Below, one piece after another: positions 15,165 to 27,413 of a stretch of 64,000 bases of DNA. The stretch spans positions 1-64,000 of the forward strand of contig CANOTO010000008.1 in NCBI GenBank assembly GCA_947570215.1. The letters are read 5' to 3'. Made by a program: the position numbers and the translations under genes. The DNA comes from an uncultured Clostridia bacterium (GTDB lineage: Bacteria > Bacillota > Clostridia > Christensenellales > CAG-314). Position 1 is the first letter of the stretch, and every line of letters begins with the position of its first letter. The notes below the pieces were generated by a model. That model saw only the letters and a list, made by a program, of their open reading frames with translations. It was not told the origin of the DNA and did not search any database.

Positions 15165-15533
15165 TTGAAAGATAAAAGCAAAATTATCGGCGTCGAAAAA
15201 CACGTTCGTATTACGAATACGGATATAAGCGATCAGATAGATAGGCTAATGGAACTGCCCGAATATAAGAGTTTCAACAAGGTAGTAAATGATGCTTTGT
15301 TCTACGGCTTACCCAAACTTACAGAAAGCATATTCGGCGAAGTAAAGTTGGCCAAACGAATATTACCACGCAAAGATAGCGGGCGATTTTATTGTGACCG
15401 TCAACAGCAAGTGCAAAAACGGCAAGGTCGAATACAAAAAAATTACTATCACGCCAATGTTACGTCCGTACCTAAAAGGCGTAAGCGAATTAACTTTTTA
15501 CGTGCAAAACCGTATTCGCGAACGCTTCCATAA
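15165..15533 (+). CDS. Small mobile-element protein, ribbon-helix-helix-like, fused out of frame
   Basis: TTG start behind an AAGGGAG site. Residues 1 to about 62 (HVRITNTDISDQIDRLMELP, FNKVVNDALFYGLPKL) look like a small DNA-binding protein of the kind found beside integrases in Clostridial elements. From about residue 65 the frame runs over the integrase remnant, which is read in a different frame, so this second half is meaningless. A deletion probably joined the two genes. The original C-terminus is lost. Confidence 0.5.
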   Translation: MKDKSKIIGVEKHVRITNTDISDQIDRLMELPEYKSFNKVVNDALFYGLPKLTESIFGEVKLAKRILPRKDSGRFYCDRQQQVQKRQGRIQKNYYHANVTSVPKRRKRINFLRAKPYSRTLP

Positions 15534-15717
15534 GGTTTTACCGGACAATAGACTTTACGATCTGCGCACGACATTTTACACAAGATGTCAAGAATGTGGT
15601 GTAGCGGACGTCGCTCGTAACGTATTTGTAGGGCACTCGTTAGGCGCATTGGGTGACACTTATACGGAATTATCCGATGAGTTTCTGCTAAAAGAAGGAC
15701 GCAAACTTAAATATTAG
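15346..15717 (+). pseudogene. Tyrosine recombinase (integrase), C-terminal remnant
   Basis: About 123 residues of the catalytic domain of a phage-type integrase. Visible are the beta-sheet KNGKVEYKKITITPML, the second catalytic box YDLRTTFYTRC, the GHS box and the C-terminal DTYTELSDEFLLKEG, whose tyrosine is the expected nucleophile. The N-terminal arm- and core-binding domains and the first catalytic arginine are missing, and the open frame starts directly after a stop codon at 15343. It lies 120 bases from the attachment site in ssrA, so it is presumably what is left of the enzyme that inserted the island. Confidence 0.8.
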
Positions 15718-17431: not shown

Positions 17432-20077
17432 GTGGCAAAAAAGTATACTTATTTGTTCAGTGAAGGCGACGCGTCTATGCGCGAACTGTTGGGCGGTAAA
17501 GGCGCAAACCTTGCGGAAATGACCAAAATCGGTCTCCCCGTACCCCAAGGCTTTACCATTTCAACCGAAGCCTGCACGCAGTACTACGAAGACGGCAGAC
17601 ATATCAACGATGAAATCAAGGGCCAGATAATGGATTACATCGAAAAGATGGAAAAAATTACCGGCAAAAAGTTCGGCGACAAGGAAAACCCCCTTCTCGT
17701 ATCCGTACGCAGCGGCGCGCGCGCGTCCATGCCCGGTATGATGGATACCATTCTTAATCTCGGATTGAACGAAGAAGTCGTCGAAACCTTGGCGAAGAAA
17801 TCCGGCAACCCCCGTTGGGCGTACGACTGCTACCGTCGTTTTATACAAATGTTCTCCGACGTAGTAATGGAAGTCGGCAAAAAGTATTTCGAAAAGCTTA
17901 TCGACGATATGAAAACCAAGCGCGGCGTAACCAACGACGTAGACTTGACTGCAGACGACCTTAAAGAACTTGCAAACCAATTTAAGGCGGAATATAAGGC
18001 TAAAATAGGCAAGGAATTCCCGCGCGATCCCAAAGAACAGCTGTTTGCGGCGGTAGAAGCGGTGTTCCGCAGCTGGGATAACCCCCGCGCAAACATTTAC
18101 CGTATGGACCACGATATCCCGTATTCTTGGGGTACCGCCGTTAACGTACAGATGATGGCGTTCGGTAATATGGGCGACGATTGCGGTACGGGCGTAGCGT
18201 TTACGCGTAACCCCGCAACGGGCGAAAAGGGTCTTATGGGCGAATTTCTTATGAACGCTCAGGGCGAAGACGTTGTTGCCGGCGTACGCACCCCCATGCA
18301 CATAGACGAAATGGCACGTATACTGCCCGACGTATACAAGCAATTCCTTGAAGTTTGCGAAACGTTGGAACATCATTACAGAGATATGCAGGATATGGAG
18401 TTCACTATCGAACAGGGCAAGCTGTATATGCTTCAAACCCGTAACGGTAAGCGTACGGCTGCCGCCGCTATAAAAATTGCCTGCGACTTAATTGACGAAG
18501 GTATGATTACCGAACAGGAAGCGTTAATGCAAATCGACGCAAAATCTCTCGATATGCTTCTTCACCCCACGTTCGACGCCAAGGCGCTTGCCGCTGCGGA
18601 TAAGAGCAACGTGGTAGGCAAAGGTATTGCCGCAAGCCCCGGAGCAGCCGCCGGCGCAATAGTATTTACGCCGGAAGACGCGGTTGAATTGGGCAAGCAA
18701 AAGAAAAAGGTTATACTTGTGCGTTTGGAAACTTCTCCCGAAGATATCGAAGGTATGAAGTACGCGCAGGGTATTTTGACCGTTCGCGGCGGACAGACTT
18801 CTCACGCGGCGGTTGTTGCCCGCGGTATGGGTACCTGCTGCGTATCCGGCTGCGGCGACATAAAGATGGACGAAGAAAACAAGCAGTTCGAGCTTGGCGG
18901 AAAAATGTTCCGCGAAGGCGACGAATTGTCGCTTGACGGCTCCACGGGTAAAATTTATGACATCGCAATCAAGACCGTTCCCGCCGATCCCTCCAGCGGT
19001 TACTTCGGACGTATTATGAAGCTTGCCGACAAGTACAAGGCTTTGGAAGTTCGCACCAACGCGGATACTCCCGCCGACGCTCAAAACGCTGCCCGTCTTG
19101 GCGCGCAAGGTATCGGTTTGTGCCGTACCGAGCATATGTTCTTCGGCGAAGGACGTATCGACAAGATTCGCGAAATGATTGTTTCCGAAACGGTGGAAGA
19201 ACGCGAAGCCGCTCTTGCTAAAATCGAACCGCTTCAACAGGCGGACTTTGAAGGACTTATGGAAGCGTTGGAAGGTAAGCCGGTTATCATCCGTTACCTT
19301 GACCCGCCGCTTCACGAGTTTGTTCCCACTGCGGAAAAGGATATAGAAGAACTTGCCGCTGCGCAGCACAAGACGGTTGCGCAAATCAAGCAAATCTGCA
19401 ATTCTCTCCACGAATTCAACCCGATGATGGGTCACCGCGGATGCCGTCTTGCGGTAACGTACCCCGAAATTGCCGTTATGCAGACAAAGGCAGTTATCAA
19501 GGCTGCTTTGGCTGTACAAAAACGTCACAAGAATTGGCACGTAGTTCCCGAAATTATGATACCGCTTATCGGTGAAATCAAGGAGCTTGCCTATGTTAAA
19601 AAGGTGGTTTGCGAAACTGCCGACGCAGTTATCAAGGCTGCCAAGTCCAACTTGAAATATCAAGTGGGCACGATGATTGAAATCCCCCGCGCGGCTTTGA
19701 CGGCGGACGAAATCGCTCAGGAAGCGGAATTCTTCAGCTTCGGTACCAACGACCTTACGCAGATGACCTTCGGCTTCAGCCGTGACGACGCAAGCAAATT
19801 CCTTCCCAGCTATTACAGCGCGAAGATTTACGAAAGCGACCCGTTTGCACGTTTGGACACCAAGGGCGTAGGCAAACTTATGAAGATGGCTGTAACGCTT
19901 GGACGCGAAACCCGTCCCGAACTTCAATGCGGTATCTGCGGCGAACACGGCGGCGACCCGTCCAGCATCGAGTTTGCTCACAAGATAGGTTTGACGTACG
20001 TATCCTGCTCGCCTTACCGCGTACCTATCGCGCGTTTGGCTGCGGCGCAGGCAAATATCAAAAATCCTCGCAAATAA
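17432..20077 (+). CDS. ppdK: Pyruvate, phosphate dikinase
   Basis: An 881-residue enzyme interconverting pyruvate, ATP and phosphate with PEP, AMP and diphosphate; in anaerobes it often works in glycolysis to make ATP from diphosphate. The N-terminal ATP-grasp domain opens with GGKGANLAEMTKIGLPVPQGF. The swivelling phosphohistidine domain has GGQTSHAAVVARGMG with His458. The C-terminal PEP-binding barrel has the CGICGEHGG motif at 833-841. Length matches the family. The start is a GTG behind AGGAGG, and codon use is biased as for a highly expressed gene. Single-gene unit with its own promoter and terminator. Confidence 0.97.
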   Translation: MAKKYTYLFSEGDASMRELLGGKGANLAEMTKIGLPVPQGFTISTEACTQYYEDGRHINDEIKGQIMDYIEKMEKITGKKFGDKENPLLVSVRSGARASMPGMMDTILNLGLNEEVVETLAKKSGNPRWAYDCYRRFIQMFSDVVMEVGKKYFEKLIDDMKTKRGVTNDVDLTADDLKELANQFKAEYKAKIGKEFPRDPKEQLFAAVEAVFRSWDNPRANIYRMDHDIPYSWGTAVNVQMMAFGNMGDDCGTGVAFTRNPATGEKGLMGEFLMNAQGEDVVAGVRTPMHIDEMARILPDVYKQFLEVCETLEHHYRDMQDMEFTIEQGKLYMLQTRNGKRTAAAAIKIACDLIDEGMITEQEALMQIDAKSLDMLLHPTFDAKALAAADKSNVVGKGIAASPGAAAGAIVFTPEDAVELGKQKKKVILVRLETSPEDIEGMKYAQGILTVRGGQTSHAAVVARGMGTCCVSGCGDIKMDEENKQFELGGKMFREGDELSLDGSTGKIYDIAIKTVPADPSSGYFGRIMKLADKYKALEVRTNADTPADAQNAARLGAQGIGLCRTEHMFFGEGRIDKIREMIVSETVEEREAALAKIEPLQQADFEGLMEALEGKPVIIRYLDPPLHEFVPTAEKDIEELAAAQHKTVAQIKQICNSLHEFNPMMGHRGCRLAVTYPEIAVMQTKAVIKAALAVQKRHKNWHVVPEIMIPLIGEIKELAYVKKVVCETADAVIKAAKSNLKYQVGTMIEIPRAALTADEIAQEAEFFSFGTNDLTQMTFGFSRDDASKFLPSYYSAKIYESDPFARLDTKGVGKLMKMAVTLGRETRPELQCGICGEHGGDPSSIEFAHKIGLTYVSCSPYRVPIARLAAAQANIKNPRK

Positions 20078-20229: not shown

Positions 20230-20904
20230 ATGAGTAGCGTGCAAATTGTAGAGATTAAAGAAAACGTTCTGTCGAGAAATAACGAGCAGGCAAAAGAAAT
20301 AAAGGCAGAGCTTAAAAGCAAAAAAATATTTTTTCTTAACGTTATGTCGTCGCCGGGGAGCGGAAAAACCACTCTGCTTATTAACCTTATAAACAGGTTA
20401 AAGCAGGATTATGCCGTCGGCGTCATAGAGGCGGATATCGATTCGGCTGTAGACGCGGAAAAAATAGCATCGGAAACGGGAGTTAAAACAATTCAGATGC
20501 ACACTTGCGGAGCTTGCCATATCACTTGCCAGATGTCGTATGACAGTCTTTGCGCACTGGGCGTAGACGGACTTGACGTAGTTATCCTCGAAAATATCGG
20601 CAATCTCGTCTGCCCCGCCGAATTCGATACGGGCGCAACGAAAAACTTAGTACTTCTGTCCGTTCCCGAGGGCGATGATAAACCTTTAAAATACCCTTTA
20701 ATGTTTGAAGTGGCTTCGGCGGTTGCAATTACTAAAAAAGACGTGTCGCCCGTATTCGATTTTTCGTTTGAAAACGCAGAAAAGAACGTGCATTTACGCA
20801 ACCCGCACGTACCCGTATTTTTTACTTCCGCACTTAAAAACGACGGGCTTGAAGGGCTTGAAAAATATCTCAGAGGAGAAATAGAGAAAGTTAAAAATGA
20901 GTAA
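20230..20904 (+). CDS. HypB-type nickel GTPase, paralog 1 (variant)
   Basis: A 224-residue SIMIBI-class GTPase of the HypB family, which hands nickel to hydrogenase or urease-type apoenzymes. P-loop SSPGSGKTT ends at residue 48; ENIGNLVCPAEFDTGA and LSVPEGDDKPLKYP are family signatures. The metal site differs from standard HypB: C93, C96, H97 and C100 (HTCGACHITC) give extra cysteines. The guanine-specificity motif reads ITKKD rather than NKxD. The N-terminal CxxCGC nickel site is absent. First gene of the cluster, with a leaderless-type promoter; it overlaps the next gene by eight bases. Confidence 0.85.
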   Translation: MSSVQIVEIKENVLSRNNEQAKEIKAELKSKKIFFLNVMSSPGSGKTTLLINLINRLKQDYAVGVIEADIDSAVDAEKIASETGVKTIQMHTCGACHITCQMSYDSLCALGVDGLDVVILENIGNLVCPAEFDTGATKNLVLLSVPEGDDKPLKYPLMFEVASAVAITKKDVSPVFDFSFENAEKNVHLRNPHVPVFFTSALKNDGLEGLEKYLRGEIEKVKNE

Positions 20905-22039
20905 TACGAAGAAGCTTTGTTTTTCGGCGATAATGCTTGCGGTCGGTATACTTTTGCCTATGGCGTTCCACGCGATACCCAACGGCGGAAATATATTCGC
21001 GCCTATGCATTTGCCCGTTTTTATTACGGGTTTCCTTTGCGGACCTATGTACGGCGCGATAGTCGGGCTCGTCTGCCCGCTTATGTCCTGTCTGTTTACG
21101 GGTATGCCTTCCGTTGCTTTTTTGCCTAATATGATGGCTGAGCTGCTTGTTTACGGCACGGTCACGGGTTTGCTTTTCCGCATTATCAAAACGGGCAAAA
21201 TAATTCCCGACGCAATATTGACGCTTATTTTAAGTATGCTTGCGGGCAGAATAGTCGGCGGATTCGTGGCGTATCTTCTCTTTCTCGGCGGAACGCGTTC
21301 CGAATATTCGTGGGCAATCTTTTTTACGGGTTATTTCGTAACCTGCTGGCCCGCGATAGTTATTCAGATTTTGCTTATTCCAACGGTGGTTACTCTTGCA
21401 AAAAAATACCGCTTTATCCGTGAAAGCGACAGATATCTCGACCTTTCGCATCACAGCAAAAACATTGCAAAGCAAAAGCAATTTTTCAACGGTCTTGCCG
21501 AAAATTGGAGAAAGGAATCCACTCTTGACGAAACGGCAATCAGCGCTCTTTTTTCGCAAGTGAGCTTGCCTGCCGGCGGCAGCGTGCTTGACGCGGGCTG
21601 CGGAACGGGCGTTATAGACGGTTATCTGAAAACAGTATGCCGCAACGTCGACGCCGTGGATATATCCGAAAAAATGATTGAAAAAGCAAGGATAAATAAT
21701 CCGGAAGTCAATTATTACGTTGCCGATTTCTACGAATTTAAAAACACGGAGCTTTACGACTGCATAGTCATCTTTGACGCCTATCCGCATTTTATGGATA
21801 AGGAGAATTTTGCGGTAAAAGCAAATTCGCTTTTAAACGACTCCGGCACGCTGTGGATTTTGTTCGATGAAAGCCGTGAGCGTATAAACGGCTATCACTC
21901 GGGGCGTTCCGATATTTCCGTATCTTTGCTGCCCGCTGAAAGGGAGGCGGCAAAACTTAACGAATTTTTCGAAGTAATTTGTAATATTGACGACGCCGAA
22001 CGCTATATTCTCGGTTTAAAGAAAAAGATAAAAAAATGA
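20897..22039 (+). CDS. ECF transporter S component fused to a SAM methyltransferase
   Basis: A 380-residue fusion. Residues 1 to about 170 form five or six membrane helices with the ECF S-component style (AIMLAVGILLPMAFHAIPNG, PMHLPVFITGFLCGPMYGA). Residues about 185-380 are a cytoplasmic class I methyltransferase, with the SAM loop VLDAGCGTG at 230-238, then VDISEKMIEKA. The S component should bind a small substrate and pair with a shared ECF energy module encoded elsewhere. The fused enzyme suggests the substrate or a derivative is methylated on entry. The ligand is unknown. Coupled by overlap to hypB paralog 1. Confidence 0.8.
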   Translation: MSNTKKLCFSAIMLAVGILLPMAFHAIPNGGNIFAPMHLPVFITGFLCGPMYGAIVGLVCPLMSCLFTGMPSVAFLPNMMAELLVYGTVTGLLFRIIKTGKIIPDAILTLILSMLAGRIVGGFVAYLLFLGGTRSEYSWAIFFTGYFVTCWPAIVIQILLIPTVVTLAKKYRFIRESDRYLDLSHHSKNIAKQKQFFNGLAENWRKESTLDETAISALFSQVSLPAGGSVLDAGCGTGVIDGYLKTVCRNVDAVDISEKMIEKARINNPEVNYYVADFYEFKNTELYDCIVIFDAYPHFMDKENFAVKANSLLNDSGTLWILFDESRERINGYHSGRSDISVSLLPAEREAAKLNEFFEVICNIDDAERYILGLKKKIKK

Positions 22040-22131: not shown

Positions 22132-23514
22132 ATGAATAATAAGGACATCAGAATCTGTATTATCGGCGGCGGTCCCGCAGGCACAAGCGCGGCAATGTAT
22201 CTTGAAAAAAAAGGGTATGAAAACTACGTCATTTACGAAAAGACCGACCGCGTCGGCGGCAAGGCTTTTTCGCCTATGATGAAGTGTAAAACGTCCGACG
22301 GCAAGTGGGAAGACAGAACGATTGAAATGGGCGCTGTCATGGGCTGCGAAACGTATTTCGCCGTTCATGAATGTGAGGAATTCGGCGGCACCACCCACCT
22401 CGACGGTCCTCCTATGGGACGTCGCTTTATGATGACCGACGGCACTCCGCAGAAATCTTCAAAGCTTGCTCTCTTGAAAAAGTTTATGAAGATGAAAAAG
22501 CTCAATAAGCTTCTCAATAAAAAATATTACGGATATGACGTAAACGGACACCGCGGCGTTGCGCAGGGCAGGTATGAAGGTCTTTGCCCTTCGCCCAAAA
22601 TGAAATTAAAGCGCATAGAGGGAGTTAACCCTAACCTCAAAGAGCTGTCTATGCCCTTCTCCGAATTCTTGAAAAAGAACAAGTGCGAGGATGCGACTCT
22701 TGTCTGGAAAGGTCCTTTCACTTCTTTCGGATACGGCTACTTTGACGAAATTCCCGCCGCATACGTTTTGAAATATCTTGACGCGTTCACCGTTCAGCAA
22801 TTCCTTTCCACCGGAAAGCTGTGGACGTGGAGAGACGGTACGCAGTCTATATGGGAGGGCGTGAACAGACACCTCAAGCATCCCGTAAATCTCAATTCCG
22901 AAGTAACGAATATAGAGCGCAAAGACGGTAAAGTTTACGTAACGGTAAACGGCAAAGTCGAAGAATTTGACAAGCTCATTATCTGCACGCCGCTTGAACT
23001 GTTCTTGAAATACGGCGACCCCAGAGATGAGGAGAAAGAGCTGTTTTCAAAGATTGTACATAAAGAATACTTTACTATGGCTGTCAGAACTGCCGAAGGC
23101 AATTGTCCCGACATTTCTTACTACTTCTTTGAAAATATGACCAACGAAACGCGCGGACACCTGATGGTGTTCTATCACCGCTGGCCGCAGTCGGAAATTA
23201 CTGACCAGCCTCTCGTAACCTTTACGTTGAGAAACCACGAGGGTATGGAGGACGTTCCTTTTGATGAAGCGCGCGACATCACTCTTGCAGATATGACCAA
23301 GTGCGGTTTGCCCGTTGACGTTACCGAGCGTATCGACGACTGGTATTACTTCCCTCACGTTTCTTCCAAGGACTATGCCGACGGCTGGTACGACAAGGTT
23401 GAAGCAATGCAGGGCAAGGACAATACGTACTACGCAGGCGAGGTTATGTCATTCGGCGATATGGAAGAAACTGTTGAATACAGCCGTGACCTGATAGAAA
23501 GATTCTTTAAATAA
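22132..23514 (+). CDS. FAD-dependent oxidoreductase, amine oxidase/phytoene desaturase-like
   Basis: A 460-residue flavoprotein. The N-terminal dinucleotide fold has IIGGGPAGTSA (GGGPAG at 12-17) and YEKTDRVGGKAF, the FAD-binding pattern of the NAD(P)-binding-8 / amine oxidase-like group. The C-terminal YYAGEVMSFGDMEETVEYSRDL closes the FAD site. No membrane segment or export signal is present. The substrate is unknown; absence of close similarity to known amine oxidases suggests a reductase or dehydrogenase in this anaerobe. An AAGGAG site precedes the ATG. It lies 93 bases after the ECF-methyltransferase gene, so a second promoter is possible. Confidence 0.8.
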   Translation: MNNKDIRICIIGGGPAGTSAAMYLEKKGYENYVIYEKTDRVGGKAFSPMMKCKTSDGKWEDRTIEMGAVMGCETYFAVHECEEFGGTTHLDGPPMGRRFMMTDGTPQKSSKLALLKKFMKMKKLNKLLNKKYYGYDVNGHRGVAQGRYEGLCPSPKMKLKRIEGVNPNLKELSMPFSEFLKKNKCEDATLVWKGPFTSFGYGYFDEIPAAYVLKYLDAFTVQQFLSTGKLWTWRDGTQSIWEGVNRHLKHPVNLNSEVTNIERKDGKVYVTVNGKVEEFDKLIICTPLELFLKYGDPRDEEKELFSKIVHKEYFTMAVRTAEGNCPDISYYFFENMTNETRGHLMVFYHRWPQSEITDQPLVTFTLRNHEGMEDVPFDEARDITLADMTKCGLPVDVTERIDDWYYFPHVSSKDYADGWYDKVEAMQGKDNTYYAGEVMSFGDMEETVEYSRDLIERFFK

Positions 23515-23538: not shown

Positions 23539-24210
23539 ATGGGTAAGGTAAGGACGATACTTTTACAAAAAGGCGTTTTCGACGATAACGATTTTGAAGC
23601 GGATAAGCTGAGGAAAGAGCTACGTACACGGGGAACCTTTCTGATAAACGTAATGTCTTCGCCCGGCGCGGGTAAGACAACCACGCTCGTAGGACTTATT
23701 AACCGCCTTAAACAATATCTGAAAATAGGCGTAATGGAAGCCGATATTGATTACGATATCGACGCAGTGCGCGTTGCCGGTAAAACAGGCTGTAAATCAA
23801 TTCAGCTTCATACGGGCGGAATGTGTCATCTTGACGCTTGTATGACAAAGCAGGGCATAGACGGTTTTGGGGGAAACCTTGATTTGATTTTCCTTGAAAA
23901 CGTGGGTAATCTCGTCTGCCCCGCCGAATTCGATACGGGCGCGCATTTGGATACGGTAATACTTTCTGTTCCCGAAGGGGACGATAAACCGCTCAAATAT
24001 CCGCTTATTTTTGAAAAATGCAATCTTGTCATCATAAACAAGATTGACGCTTTAAGTTATTTCACTTTCGATATGCAGGCGTGTATGAAAAATATTTTTT
24101 CGCGTAATCCGCACGCGGCAGTGTTCCCCGTATCGGCTAAGACGGGCGAGGGAATGGAAGAACTTTCAGATTACATTTTAAAACTAATAAACTGCAAGGA
24201 GAAAACGTAA
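23539..24210 (+). CDS. hypB: HypB-type nickel GTPase, paralog 2
   Basis: A 223-residue HypB family GTPase, closer to the canonical protein than paralog 1. The P-loop SSPGAGKTTT is at residues 40-49, the metal site C96-H97 sits in TGGMCHLDACM, ENVGNLVCPAEFDTGA is conserved, and the guanine motif is NKID. As in paralog 1 the N-terminal CxxCGC nickel site is missing. The two are clearly paralogs from an old duplication. The stop codon overlaps the next start (TAATG), so translation is coupled to the large flavoprotein. Confidence 0.9.
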   Translation: MGKVRTILLQKGVFDDNDFEADKLRKELRTRGTFLINVMSSPGAGKTTTLVGLINRLKQYLKIGVMEADIDYDIDAVRVAGKTGCKSIQLHTGGMCHLDACMTKQGIDGFGGNLDLIFLENVGNLVCPAEFDTGAHLDTVILSVPEGDDKPLKYPLIFEKCNLVIINKIDALSYFTFDMQACMKNIFSRNPHAAVFPVSAKTGEGMEELSDYILKLINCKEKT

Positions 24211-27068
24211 TGCCTAAGCAGAACGATAAAATTATCAGCAAATATCAAGGCGAAAAAAATCCTGATAAGCGCTATATTAAATTGGGTAAAAAAATAACCG
24301 ACGTCGTGCCGCATAAAATTTTCGGAGTTAAGTCGGACGACCCGGAATATTGGGGTCTTAAAGAGGTCTTAACCCCCGAAATGTGCGACGTCGCAAATAA
24401 AATGAAGCTTCGTAAATTCTACACTTTCGAAGAGCTTCTGAAAAAGAATAAAGGTTATGAGCCGGCTGCTTTCCAAAAGCTTCTCGACGAAATGTCTTAT
24501 ATCGGTATTCTCGAATACGATTACGGCGACAATTACGACCACTACGGAGAGCTTAAAGACAAACCGCGCATAAAGAGGTATCGCGTACCTTTCTACGTGC
24601 CGGGTTCGGCGGAGCTTTTCAATTCGTCTGTCGACCGTATAGAAAAAAATCCCGCGGTTGCATCCTTTTTCGAGAGAATGACGTTCATTCCGCTTGCAGG
24701 AATTACACAGATGATTCCGCCCGGCGGCGACGGCATAGGTATGCACGTCATACCCGTTGAACAAGCGATAAACGCAGAAAACAAGTCGGTGGATTTAGAA
24801 CATATTTCCTATTGGCTTAAAAAATACGAGGGTCATATTTCCGCAGGCATTTGCTCTTGCCGCGCTTCGCGCGCCGTGCTTGGCGACGGCTGTACGGACG
24901 ACGTCGACGATTGGTGCATCCAGCTTGGCGATATGGCGGATTATACCGTGGAAACGGGTCGCGCCCATTACATAACAAAAGAACGTGCGCTGGAAATTCT
25001 GGAGCTTGCTGAAAAGAACGGTTACGTCCACCAGATTACCAACATAGACGGAGAAAACAAGATATTCGATATTTGCAACTGCAACGTTAAAATTTGTAAC
25101 GCGTTAAGAACGTCTATGCTCTTCAATACGCCAAACCTTTCGCGTAGCGCCTATACAGCTAAGGTCGAAAGGAATAAGTGCGTCGCATGCGGTAAGTGCG
25201 TTGAAATTTGTCCTGCCGGCGCAGTCAAGTTGGGGCAGAAGCTCTGCAATAAGGGCGGCGATGAAGTCAAGTATCCTCATGCGCCGTTACCCGATAACAA
25301 TATATGGGGACAGTATGCTTGGGACGAAGAATACCGCGATACCGCCAGACTTTCCAATACATATGAAAGCGGCAGTTCTCCTTGCAAAGCGGCGTGCCCG
25401 GCGCACGTGCCCGTTCAAGCATATTTAAAGCTTGCGCACGACGGAAAGTACAGGGAAGCCCTTGCAATGATAAAGACGGAAAATCCGTTCCCCGCGGTAT
25501 GCGGAAGAGTTTGTAATAAGAGATGCGAGCTTGCCTGCACGCGCGGAGACATCGATTCGCCGGTTTCCATAGACGCAGTAAAGAAATTCGTTGCGGATTT
25601 AGAAATAAAATCCGGTAATCGTTACGTTCCGGAAAAAGTAGTGCAGTCCGTTTACGGTAAATTTGACGAAAAAATTGCTATAATCGGCGGCGGTCCTGCC
25701 GGACTTTCCGCGGCGTATTATCTAGCGCAGAAGGGTTATAAGCCTACCGTATTTGAAAAGAACCCCGTTGCGGGCGGTATGTTGACTTACGGTATTCCTA
25801 CCTATAAACTCGAAAAGGACGTAATAGCTTCCGAAATAGAGGTAATAAAAGAACTCGGCGTAGAAATCAAATGTAACGTCGAGGTCGGTAAGGATATAAC
25901 AATAGCTCAGCTCAAAGAACAAGGTTATAAAGCTTTTTACATAGCAATAGGTTGTCAAGGCGGTAGGCGTCCCGGAGTTGTAAACGATACGGCAATCGGG
26001 TGCGAAATAGCCGTGGAATATCTTCGCAACAGTTTCGATAAGAAAGAGCAGTTCACCGGTAACGTGGTCGTTGTAGGCGGTGGTAACGTTGCAATCGACT
26101 GCGCCCGTAATGCGCACAGATTAGGCTCGCATAACGTGAGTATGTATTGCCTTGAAACAAAAGAAGATATGCCCGCTTCCCGTGAAGAAATAAGTGAAGC
26201 CGAAGAAGAAGCTGTTTCTATAAATAATTCTTGGGGACCCAAAGAAATCAAAATCAATGAAAACGGTGAAGTTTGCGGTATCGTGTTCAAAAAATGTCTA
26301 AGAACCATTGACCCCGAAACGAAGGCTTTCGCGCCCGTTTACGATGAAAATCAGACGGTAGAAGTAAACGCAGACAAGATAGTGTTTGCAATCGGTCAAT
26401 CTGTGGAATGGGGCAATCTCTTAGAAGGAACAAAGGTTACGCTAAGAGGAGGCAGATATCCCGTTGCGGATACGTTTACCTATCAAACAGCCGACCCCGA
26501 CGTGTTCGTCGGAGGCGACGTGTTTACGGGACCCCGTTTCGTTATCGACGCCATAGCTCAGGGACACGAGGCGGCAGAAAGTCTTCACCGTCGCGTTCGT
26601 CCAAATGCGCATATGACAATCGGCAGGGACAGAAGATACTATGCAATTCTCGATAAAGAGAACGTAACTTATCCTTCTTATGATAAGACGCCCAGACAAG
26701 TTGAAAAGGACGACCAAACTATCGATTGCAAAAATTCATTCCGCGATGCGCACGGAACTTTAACCGAACAGCAGGTAAAAGCGGAAACTAACAGATGCTT
26801 GTCTTGCGGAGCTTCTTATGTCGACCCGCACAAGTGTATCGGTTGCGGACTTTGCACTACAAAATGCGAGTTTGATGCAATTCACTTAGTGCGCGACCAT
26901 CCCAAGTGTACAAATATGCGGGTTGCCGAAAAGAAAATAGGCGGACTTTTGAATTATTCTGTTAAACGCGCTTTCAAAATAATAGCGCACTCAAGTTCAA
27001 AAGAGGCAAGACAGCTTGCTCAAAAGCGAAAGGCTTTCAAAAAAGAGAACAAGAAAAAGGATAATTAA
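24210..27068 (+). CDS. Multidomain iron-sulfur flavoprotein with GltD-like core
   Basis: A 952-residue soluble redox protein. Residues 1 to about 320 carry a cysteine-rich region (ICSCRASRAVLGDGC, CIQLGD, ICNCNVKICN) like other FeS-binding proteins of anaerobes. A 4Fe-4S motif CVACGKCVEIC starts at C324. From about 390 comes a glutamate synthase beta-like module: FeS region (CKAACPAHVPV, CGRVCNKRCELAC), FAD fold GGGPAG at 493-498, and a second nucleotide fold VVVGGGNVAIDCAR for NAD(P)H. A C-terminal ferredoxin motif CIGCGLCTTKC starts at C876. It should move electrons between NAD(P)H, FAD and several clusters; the acceptor is unknown. HypA follows without a gap. Confidence 0.85.
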   Translation: MPKQNDKIISKYQGEKNPDKRYIKLGKKITDVVPHKIFGVKSDDPEYWGLKEVLTPEMCDVANKMKLRKFYTFEELLKKNKGYEPAAFQKLLDEMSYIGILEYDYGDNYDHYGELKDKPRIKRYRVPFYVPGSAELFNSSVDRIEKNPAVASFFERMTFIPLAGITQMIPPGGDGIGMHVIPVEQAINAENKSVDLEHISYWLKKYEGHISAGICSCRASRAVLGDGCTDDVDDWCIQLGDMADYTVETGRAHYITKERALEILELAEKNGYVHQITNIDGENKIFDICNCNVKICNALRTSMLFNTPNLSRSAYTAKVERNKCVACGKCVEICPAGAVKLGQKLCNKGGDEVKYPHAPLPDNNIWGQYAWDEEYRDTARLSNTYESGSSPCKAACPAHVPVQAYLKLAHDGKYREALAMIKTENPFPAVCGRVCNKRCELACTRGDIDSPVSIDAVKKFVADLEIKSGNRYVPEKVVQSVYGKFDEKIAIIGGGPAGLSAAYYLAQKGYKPTVFEKNPVAGGMLTYGIPTYKLEKDVIASEIEVIKELGVEIKCNVEVGKDITIAQLKEQGYKAFYIAIGCQGGRRPGVVNDTAIGCEIAVEYLRNSFDKKEQFTGNVVVVGGGNVAIDCARNAHRLGSHNVSMYCLETKEDMPASREEISEAEEEAVSINNSWGPKEIKINENGEVCGIVFKKCLRTIDPETKAFAPVYDENQTVEVNADKIVFAIGQSVEWGNLLEGTKVTLRGGRYPVADTFTYQTADPDVFVGGDVFTGPRFVIDAIAQGHEAAESLHRRVRPNAHMTIGRDRRYYAILDKENVTYPSYDKTPRQVEKDDQTIDCKNSFRDAHGTLTEQQVKAETNRCLSCGASYVDPHKCIGCGLCTTKCEFDAIHLVRDHPKCTNMRVAEKKIGGLLNYSVKRAFKIIAHSSSKEARQLAQKRKAFKKENKKKDN

Positions 27069-27413
27069 ATGCACGAGTTGGGTATTGTGATGCACGTAAT
27101 AAAGCAAGTGGAAGCTGTTGCCGAAGAAAACAAGGTTGAAAAAGTAACCGCATTGAATATGGAAGTCGGCGAAGTTTCTTCAATTGTACCCGATTTGTTC
27201 CGCGATTGTTTTGATTGGGCAAAGAAAAAAACAAAGTTTATGCGTGACACACAATTAAATCTTATCGTGTTGGAAGCTGTTTCGTACTGCAATAATTGTA
27301 AAAGGACGTATAAAACCTCTGAATATGCAAAGATTTGTCCGTATTGCGGAAATAGCGATACCTATCTCGTAACGGGTAACGAAATGAATATTAAAGATAT
27401 CGAGGTAAAATAA
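27069..27413 (+). CDS. hypA: Nickel metallochaperone HypA
   Basis: A 114-residue HypA: N-terminal nickel-binding MHE (M1, H2, E3) and the zinc ribbon C74, C77, C90, C93. HypA brings nickel to HypB and on to the target apoenzyme. Length and motif spacing are canonical. The ATG directly follows the stop of the flavoprotein. No hypC, hypD, hypE, hypF or hydrogenase subunit lies within the window, so the client of this HypA and the two HypB paralogs is not apparent. Confidence 0.93.
   Translation: MHELGIVMHVIKQVEAVAEENKVEKVTALNMEVGEVSSIVPDLFRDCFDWAKKKTKFMRDTQLNLIVLEAVSYCNNCKRTYKTSEYAKICPYCGNSDTYLVTGNEMNIKDIEVK

Follow-up and report, generated by a model that had tools for sequence, protein, structure and literature searches.

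A fused ECF transporter S component and class I methyltransferase encoded among nickel-maturation genes in an uncultured Clostridia bacterium

Why would a subunit of a membrane importer be joined to a methyltransferase, and why should the joint gene lie among genes for nickel maturation? The question is raised by a 380-residue protein encoded in the window, a stretch of 64,000 nucleotides from an uncultured Clostridia bacterium. The original prediction, made from the letters of the DNA, had described an ECF transporter S component and a class I methyltransferase with a VLDAGCGTG motif in one open frame between hyp genes, and had suggested that an imported ligand, perhaps a metal or a cofactor, might be methylated at the membrane. 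We refer to the two halves and their families as S and M. The genes and domains concerned, all on the plus strand, are as follows.

20230..20904, plus strand: hypB, nickel GTPase (TIGR00073, 214 bits vs 121.2), overlapping the start of the fused gene by 8 bp
20897..22039, plus strand: fused ECF S component and class I SAM methyltransferase, 380 aa, with an ATG start and an uninterrupted single frame
20909..21391, plus strand: S-component domain PF12822, aa 5-165 (aa 1-180 by the S-family profile), from Pfam and fold match
21005..21010, plus strand: Met37-His38 of the invariant PMHxP motif, in loop 1 or at the start of TM2 (44/44 aligned sequences)
21104..21142, plus strand: Met70-Pro71, Met79 and Glu82, invariant, in loop 3 and TM4 (44/44 aligned sequences)
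21455..22030, plus strand: methyltransferase domain (M family), aa 187-378, with VLDAGCGTG and family-invariant W, PHF and H (Pfam, alignment of 17/17 rows, fold)
22132..23514, plus strand: FAD oxidoreductase of the flavin amine-oxidase family (PF01593, E 5e-16)
23539..24210, plus strand: second hypB (TIGR00073, 215 bits)
24210..27068, plus strand: IsrA-like FAD/4Fe-4S oxidoreductase, 952 aa (PF14691, PF07992, two Fer4 domains; CxC at 215-217 and 289-291)
27069..27413, plus strand: hypA, nickel metallochaperone (PF01155, E 3e-31; 78.8 bits, below the TIGR00100 cut-off of 88.1)

The gene order in the window is HypB-[S-MT]-FAD oxidoreductase-HypB-IsrA-like oxidoreductase-HypA, so that the fusion does lie between hyp genes, with one hypB upstream and the second hypB and hypA downstream. 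We confirmed that the joining of the two domains is genuine and more than chance, because each half scores above curated cut-offs and six further genomes carry the fusion as well. The N-terminal half matches PF12822 (ECF_trnsprt) over residues 5-165 with an E value of 5e-15 and 56.4 bits against a curated Pfam cut-off of 30.7. The C-terminal half matches Methyltransf_25 (residues 230-316, E 4.9e-12) and Methyltransf_11 (residues 231-321, E 6.3e-12), both above their curated Pfam cut-offs, in agreement with the architecture of the original prediction. SAM motif I reads VLDAGCGTG, and its LD...G.G pattern is kept in 17/17 rows of the M alignment. AlphaFold2, run with a 44-row alignment, modelled the protein as two domains with a mean pLDDT of 92.5 and a pTM of 0.77. 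Among the literature matches listed, we found no description of an S component-methyltransferase fusion in the open-licence literature.

Seven genomes, the window's included, carry the S-M fusion. The further copies are L034, L035, L036 (where a contig edge falls within the S half), L037 (the same as L005 and G230), L006 (G109) and L007 (G213). Full-length, single-frame fused relatives were recovered from 4/396 genomes searched in the order, including that of the window, and from 4/56 loci of a contig collection, one of these sharing its contig with the G230 copy; together these make up the seven genomes. S and M also occur as adjoining unfused genes at ten further loci and in both gene orders: S precedes M in L052, L076, L082, L088, L016, L018 (= L169), G086 and L041 (its S gene detected by tblastn but not by the gene caller), and M precedes S in L073 and L164. 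The linker between the halves is short and conserved among near relatives. That two genes had been joined by an assembly error or frameshift was the doubt raised at the outset, and the source, with its 17 contigs, does have the look of a draft assembly. The presence of the fusion in seven genomes and of unfused neighbours in either order rules this out, and we regard an artefact as vanishingly improbable.

It had also been proposed that separate, unlinked halves in relatives would speak against a functional connection, and on this the outcome was mixed. Relatives of either half are mostly found without the other half alongside, whereas among the 12 genomes of S1 type (best S match >200 bits) M is present in 7, and in 7/7 of these the two are fused or adjoining. 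In 8 M genomes the best S match falls in the S2 class (about 143-186 bits; a class of 55 genomes), and no S gene was called at their fetched M loci. The complete gene order is retained in the window, L035 and L037 (= L216); L166 retains the fusion, HypA, the IsrA-like gene and HypB; in L152 and L168 the Hyp and IsrA genes are retained and M stands as a separate gene. In L152 and L168, hypB overlaps the unfused M by 8 bp, the same overlap that joins hypB to the fusion in the window, while the overlap with the fusion is 4 bp in L035 and absent in L037. A tree of 32 M domains placed the fused proteins together with unfused L010 and L015 on one side of a branch with weak support (84/63); monophyly of the fused proteins alone was rejected (p 0.003), three state changes being required. 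The shared hypB overlap and the tree topology therefore indicate that the S half came or went while the operon was left undisturbed.

When the whole fusion model was searched with Foldseek and VIA, solely methyltransferases appeared among the best 50 matches, and the S half was therefore folded and searched alone. This model (pLDDT 90.9) has an S-component fold, nearest to PanT (Z 16.5, 171 residues, rmsd 2.9), RibU (15.8), ThiT (15.4) and BioY (14.9), Z values within 1 of each other being treated as tied; the nickel/cobalt S components NikM (12.6) and CbiM (11.4) scored lower. By sequence, 24/31 S members match the FolT family with E values no higher than 0.001. The S half of the fusion in the window fell under the cut-off of every NCBIfam S-component model that it matched, and scored 25.8 bits against a cut-off of 60 for the folate-family model TIGR04518. 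AxxxA is a contact motif in TM1 of ECF S components; A11 is kept in 37/44 rows and A15 in 39/44, and both are present in the window. The protein shares with vitamin-type S components (PanT, RibU, ThiT, FolT) the Pfam family PF12822, a fold match at Z 15-16.5, the AxxxA motif and an EcfT in the genome, and differs from them in its C-terminal methyltransferase and in the invariant set of PMHxP, M70, M79 and E82.

The nickel and cobalt importers NikM and CbiM (PF01891) have the S-component fold in common with the S half, which would likewise serve nickel enzymes. Their N-terminal Met-His coordinates metal. Membership in the NikM/CbiM family was rejected: PF01891 is not among the protein's 9 Pfam matches, and its N-terminus reads MSNTKK rather than MH. 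LarMNQO, named in the portion of a report on isoprene reduction available to us (PMC10134865), is grouped here with NikM and CbiM as a nickel/cobalt importer and offers the same likeness of service to nickel enzymes. Within the S family, Met37, His38, Met70, Pro71, Met79 and Glu82 are invariant in 44/44 rows and His25 is kept in 37/44. Taking as analogue ThiT Glu84, which the available excerpt of a structural study places in helix 4 (PMC5037267), the region of Met70, Met79 and Glu82 likely faces the ligand pocket. The window's genome has one EcfT (G000:C1:72418-73083), unlinked to the fusion gene; since this single copy sits elsewhere, the S half probably uses a shared ECF module.

By fold the M half is a class I methyltransferase, its best structural match having Z 20.3 over 186 aligned residues (rmsd 2.4). 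It matched 18 NCBIfam models, the best at 49.7 bits against a cut-off of 158.9, and none of the named methyltransferase equivalogs among them (BchM, UbiG, CpaM, DVU_1556, NodS and others) exceeded its NCBIfam cut-off. The family is sharply bounded: 22/248 genomes sampled from the order scored at least 118.9 bits with the M profile, and the next best score was 82.3. Membership follows nickel maturation. HypA was found in 15/22 M-positive and 23/226 M-negative genomes (p = 3e-9), and HypA or LarC in 19/22 and 48/226 (p = 1.5e-9), p values that are optimistic because the genomes come from one order and are related rather than independent. LarC alone showed no significant association with M (6/22 against 30/226, p = 0.08). 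For these counts HypA was taken at E < 1e-20 (38 genomes; 40 above the tool cut-off) and LarC from all 36 matches, with thresholds set after the scores had been seen and genome lists compiled by hand. The M-positive genomes lacking HypA or LarC are G048, G071 and G213, and G213 carries the fusion with no strong match to HypA, LarC or LarA.

S showed no such association: HypA or LarC occurred in 5/12 S1-type genomes (p = 0.2), in 18/55 of the S2 class (p = 0.18), and in 0/5 S1-type genomes without M. The nickel link thus belongs mainly to M, and a plain nickel role for the S family as a whole does not find support in co-occurrence. Among 30 genomes with a standalone S, picked from a larger set, strong matches (E <= 3.2e-15) were found to HypA in 3, to LarA in 15, to either in 17 and to neither in 13, any M elsewhere in the genome being left out of account for 25/30. 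The original interpretation therefore holds for the fusion, for its not being an artefact and for the hint of a metal, and needs qualifying in that the hint from the hyp context attaches to the methyltransferase and not to the S component.

The neighbourhoods of M, labelled by single-query BLAST and an in-house gene caller, point the same way. Hyp, Ech or IsrA genes were found at 11/22 M loci, an S component or FecB/FecC importer at 12/22, and either kind at 17/22, compared to 0/20 with Hyp/Ech/IsrA genes, a FecB/FecC importer or an S component at control loci of 4.5 to 16 kb around the next-ranked methyltransferase matches. The 5/22 M loci without any partner gene are L150, L151, L153, the short L162 and L165; we kept in the denominators the poorly judged L162 (a 3.3-kb contig), L165 (no intact M called) and G086 (short flanks). 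In L155 and L156 an Ech-type [NiFe] hydrogenase subunit and HypA/F/C/D/E genes lie upstream of M; L163 shows the same arrangement without a HypE call. HypA adjoins M in L157, and L041 has the order DUF3842-S-M-toxin/antitoxin-LarE-LarB-LarC. FecB/FecC/ATPase importers adjoin M in L158, L159, L160 and L161, and L154 shows FecC and ATPase only; these FecBCD-type importers are candidates for the import of nickel or a nickel chelate. This association of the M family with nickel-maturation genes and importers was computed directly, as were both folds, the recurrence of the fusion and the operon. Among the matches listed, no nickel-linked methyltransferase family of this kind was described in the open-licence literature. 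As observations in their own right, the M gene of L155, L156 and L163 lies at the end of, or just past, the Ech/hyp gene run, and upstream of S/M there is a gene resembling pyruvate phosphate dikinase (a name given by eye) in the window (17432-20077), in L052 (4349-7363) and in L041 (1-2469, 63% identity to the window's), which may be chance.

Which enzyme would the nickel be for? In the window's genome (93% completeness), PF00374, PF09861, PF01969, TIGR01702 and PF01891, the markers of [NiFe] hydrogenase, LarA, LarC, CooS and CbiM, had no match, and its sole HypA is the window's copy. HypA and HypB therefore most likely serve the operon of the fusion itself. Two other clients were considered and rejected: CO dehydrogenase as a hidden nickel enzyme gave weak matches in 7/40 genomes and 0 above the cut-off, and [NiFe] hydrogenase was present in 1/18 genomes selected because of their S/M loci, a genome other than that of the window. 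The remaining candidate in the operon resembles IsrA, the putative isoprene reductase of Acetobacterium wieringae, for which the accessible part of the published account describes the same domains (PMC10134865). The window's protein has PF14691, PF07992, two Fer4 domains and the CxC pairs that mark the IsrA type, with HypA and HypB adjoining, IsrA being compared by its published description; on that description, as far as it was available, the spacing of 74 between the CxC pairs equals that of IsrA (180-182/254-256; PMC10134865).

The operons are alike in their IsrA-like oxidoreductase, HypA and HypB and in a genome without [NiFe] hydrogenase, according to the excerpt of the report (PMC10134865). 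They differ in content: as described there, the isr operon encodes HypA twice and HypB once together with a ferredoxin, whereas the window encodes HypB twice and HypA once, along with an extra FAD oxidoreductase and the S-MT fusion. The same excerpt gives HypA nearby in 73% and HypB nearby in 56% of 988 IsrA homologues, advances nickel insertion into IsrA as its authors' hypothesis since the A. wieringae genome lacks [NiFe] hydrogenase, and mentions an isoprene-induced methyltransferase of 327 aa encoded outside the isr operon (PMC10134865). By analogy, the IsrA-like oxidoreductase of the window is putatively nickel-dependent.

The settings of S outside the fusion bear on what it carries. Many standalone members lie in DUF3842-EcfA-EcfA-EcfT-S-kinase operons. 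A distant S relative is fused in a single frame to a uridine-kinase-like P-loop domain (L215:7333-8553, minus strand, 406 aa), found once, in genome G109. Further distant relatives are fused to DUF1893 (PF08973, TM1506 domain) in L219:3974-4909, L220:3312-4274, L221:3256-4194 and L230:3408-4517, drawn from 13 loci mostly picked for long open frames and thus giving no measure of frequency. These DUF1893-fused S components carry a PM[HY]xP motif, the S part of L230 lying just under the PF12822 cut-off. The kinase-like and DUF1893 fusions favour an organic or chelated ligand that is modified on entry. A sister S subfamily abuts LarC in 4/36 LarC-positive genomes (G097, G099, G139 and G198), from three genera.

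Reading the ligand class from S and the nickel link from M leads to a joint reading: the importer and its tethered, predicted cytosolic methyltransferase would act on an organic or chelated ligand related to nickel, handled for HypB/HypA and the IsrA-like enzyme, and so serve the nickel supply of the operon. We put this forward tentatively, at somewhat less than an even chance. We infer the nature of the ligand (an organic compound or metal chelate), its role as methyl acceptor and the identity of the supplied metal as nickel. The S half would capture the scarce small ligand outside the cell and, on being turned over by the shared EcfA-EcfA-EcfT module, give it up to the interior; the tethered methyltransferase would then methylate the ligand, or its chelating part, with SAM, and methylation would trap the ligand or free the metal for HypB/HypA and finally for the IsrA-like enzyme. 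Several observations weigh against this reading: the S fold is nearer the vitamin type than NikM or CbiM, S itself has no association with nickel, 13/30 standalone-S genomes lack both strong HypA and strong LarA, LarC taken singly is not significantly associated with M, G213 carries the fusion with no strong nickel marker, and 5/22 M loci showed no partner gene. In addition, M need not act on the S ligand, because it often occurs without an adjoining S component, in Ech/Hyp and FecBCD contexts. A more specific form, which seems unlikely, would have nickel arrive in anaerobes bound to a small organic chelator through the ECF S component (through FecBCD-type importers in relatives). A dedicated methyltransferase, here joined to the importer, would methylate the chelator so that the metal becomes available to HypB/HypA and to an IsrA-like nickel enzyme, and the S family with its relatives would form a general import-and-modify platform with methyltransferase, kinase and DUF1893 partners.

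The same evidence can be read in other ways. The ligand could be a vitamin-like organic compound unrelated to nickel uptake, from which M makes a cofactor for the IsrA-like or FAD enzymes, so that the association with nickel would arise indirectly through their need for HypA/HypB. The vitamin-type fold (PanT Z 16.5), the weak FolT matches (24/31) and the occurrence of some DUF3842-EcfA-EcfA-EcfT-S-kinase operons in genomes without strong HypA or LarA all fit, yet M also lies downstream of Ech [NiFe] hydrogenase and hyp genes and beside LarEBC, where nickel is the common factor; to our knowledge, no such cofactor is known for those settings. On balance we think this account unlikely, though it deserves to be kept in view. 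Direct import of Ni2+, or of some other soft divalent metal, by way of a His/Met/Glu site, with M as a SAM-dependent gate or regulator or as a modifier of a partner protein, appears less probable again. It would explain the invariance of Met37, His38, Met70, Met79 and Glu82 (44/44) and the near-constancy of His25 (37/44) as well as the sister S genes next to LarC in 4/36 genomes, but a metal ion cannot be phosphorylated, as fusion to a kinase-like domain (beside that to DUF1893) would suggest of the cargo, S by itself is not associated with nickel markers, PanT, RibU and ThiT match its fold more closely than NikM or CbiM do, and three methionines are an unusual ligand set for Ni2+.

CbiM, the known Ni/Co S component, also favours direct metal import by its rarity: it is strong (E < 1e-50; 8 genomes, 15 above the cut-off) in just 7/67 HypA/LarC genomes, or in 10/67 if every match above the curated cut-off counts, and other nickel importers must therefore exist. 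A precedent for cytosolic control of a nickel importer is the action of SlyD on NiuD in Helicobacter pylori, described in the available part of one report (PMC7840056). The likeness to that system, the NiuBDE nickel ABC importer with SlyD, lies in a cytosolic protein acting directly on a nickel importer; as described in that part, SlyD is a peptidyl-prolyl isomerase and chaperone separate from the transporter and, unlike M, no methyltransferase (PMC7840056). Finally, the fusion might do nothing beyond fixing the stoichiometry or co-expression of proteins that act separately, with neither channelling nor modification on entry. The 8-bp hypB overlap kept by the unfused M of L152 and L168 and the rejected monophyly of fused proteins (p 0.003; branch 84/63 with two unfused proteins) fit this account, whereas the repeated pairing of unfused S and M in both orders and the fusion of S relatives to two other domains speak against it, and we judge it improbable.

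The bounded M family, which tracks nickel maturation and is paired with two unrelated importer types, provides a handle on nickel acquisition and on the proposed nickel need of IsrA-type enzymes. The small share of nickel-marker genomes of the order that carry CbiM bears on how the others acquire nickel, and related S components fused to a methyltransferase, to a kinase-like domain or to DUF1893 point to a possible direct coupling of ECF uptake with chemical modification of the cargo.

Several other observations were made along the way. DUF3842 is a frequent first gene of EcfA-EcfA-EcfT-S operons and is present at 39 loci, with many examples among L038-L084; no paper on it was found in the open-licence literature. 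A PMHxP-type S component directly adjoins the gene for LarC, a nickel insertion protein, in L177, L178, L179 and L180, from four genomes. The S part of L215 is of a sister type with the pattern LTGQIP..PMHLP, and its genome, G109, also carries an S-methyltransferase fusion (L006/L166). An aldo/keto-reductase-like gene, named by eye, adjoins the S-DUF1893 fusion in 2/4 cases (L220 and L230). Lastly, a short open reading frame at 15394-15717 of the window, in a stretch with few called genes, resembles by eye the C-terminal end of a phage-type integrase.
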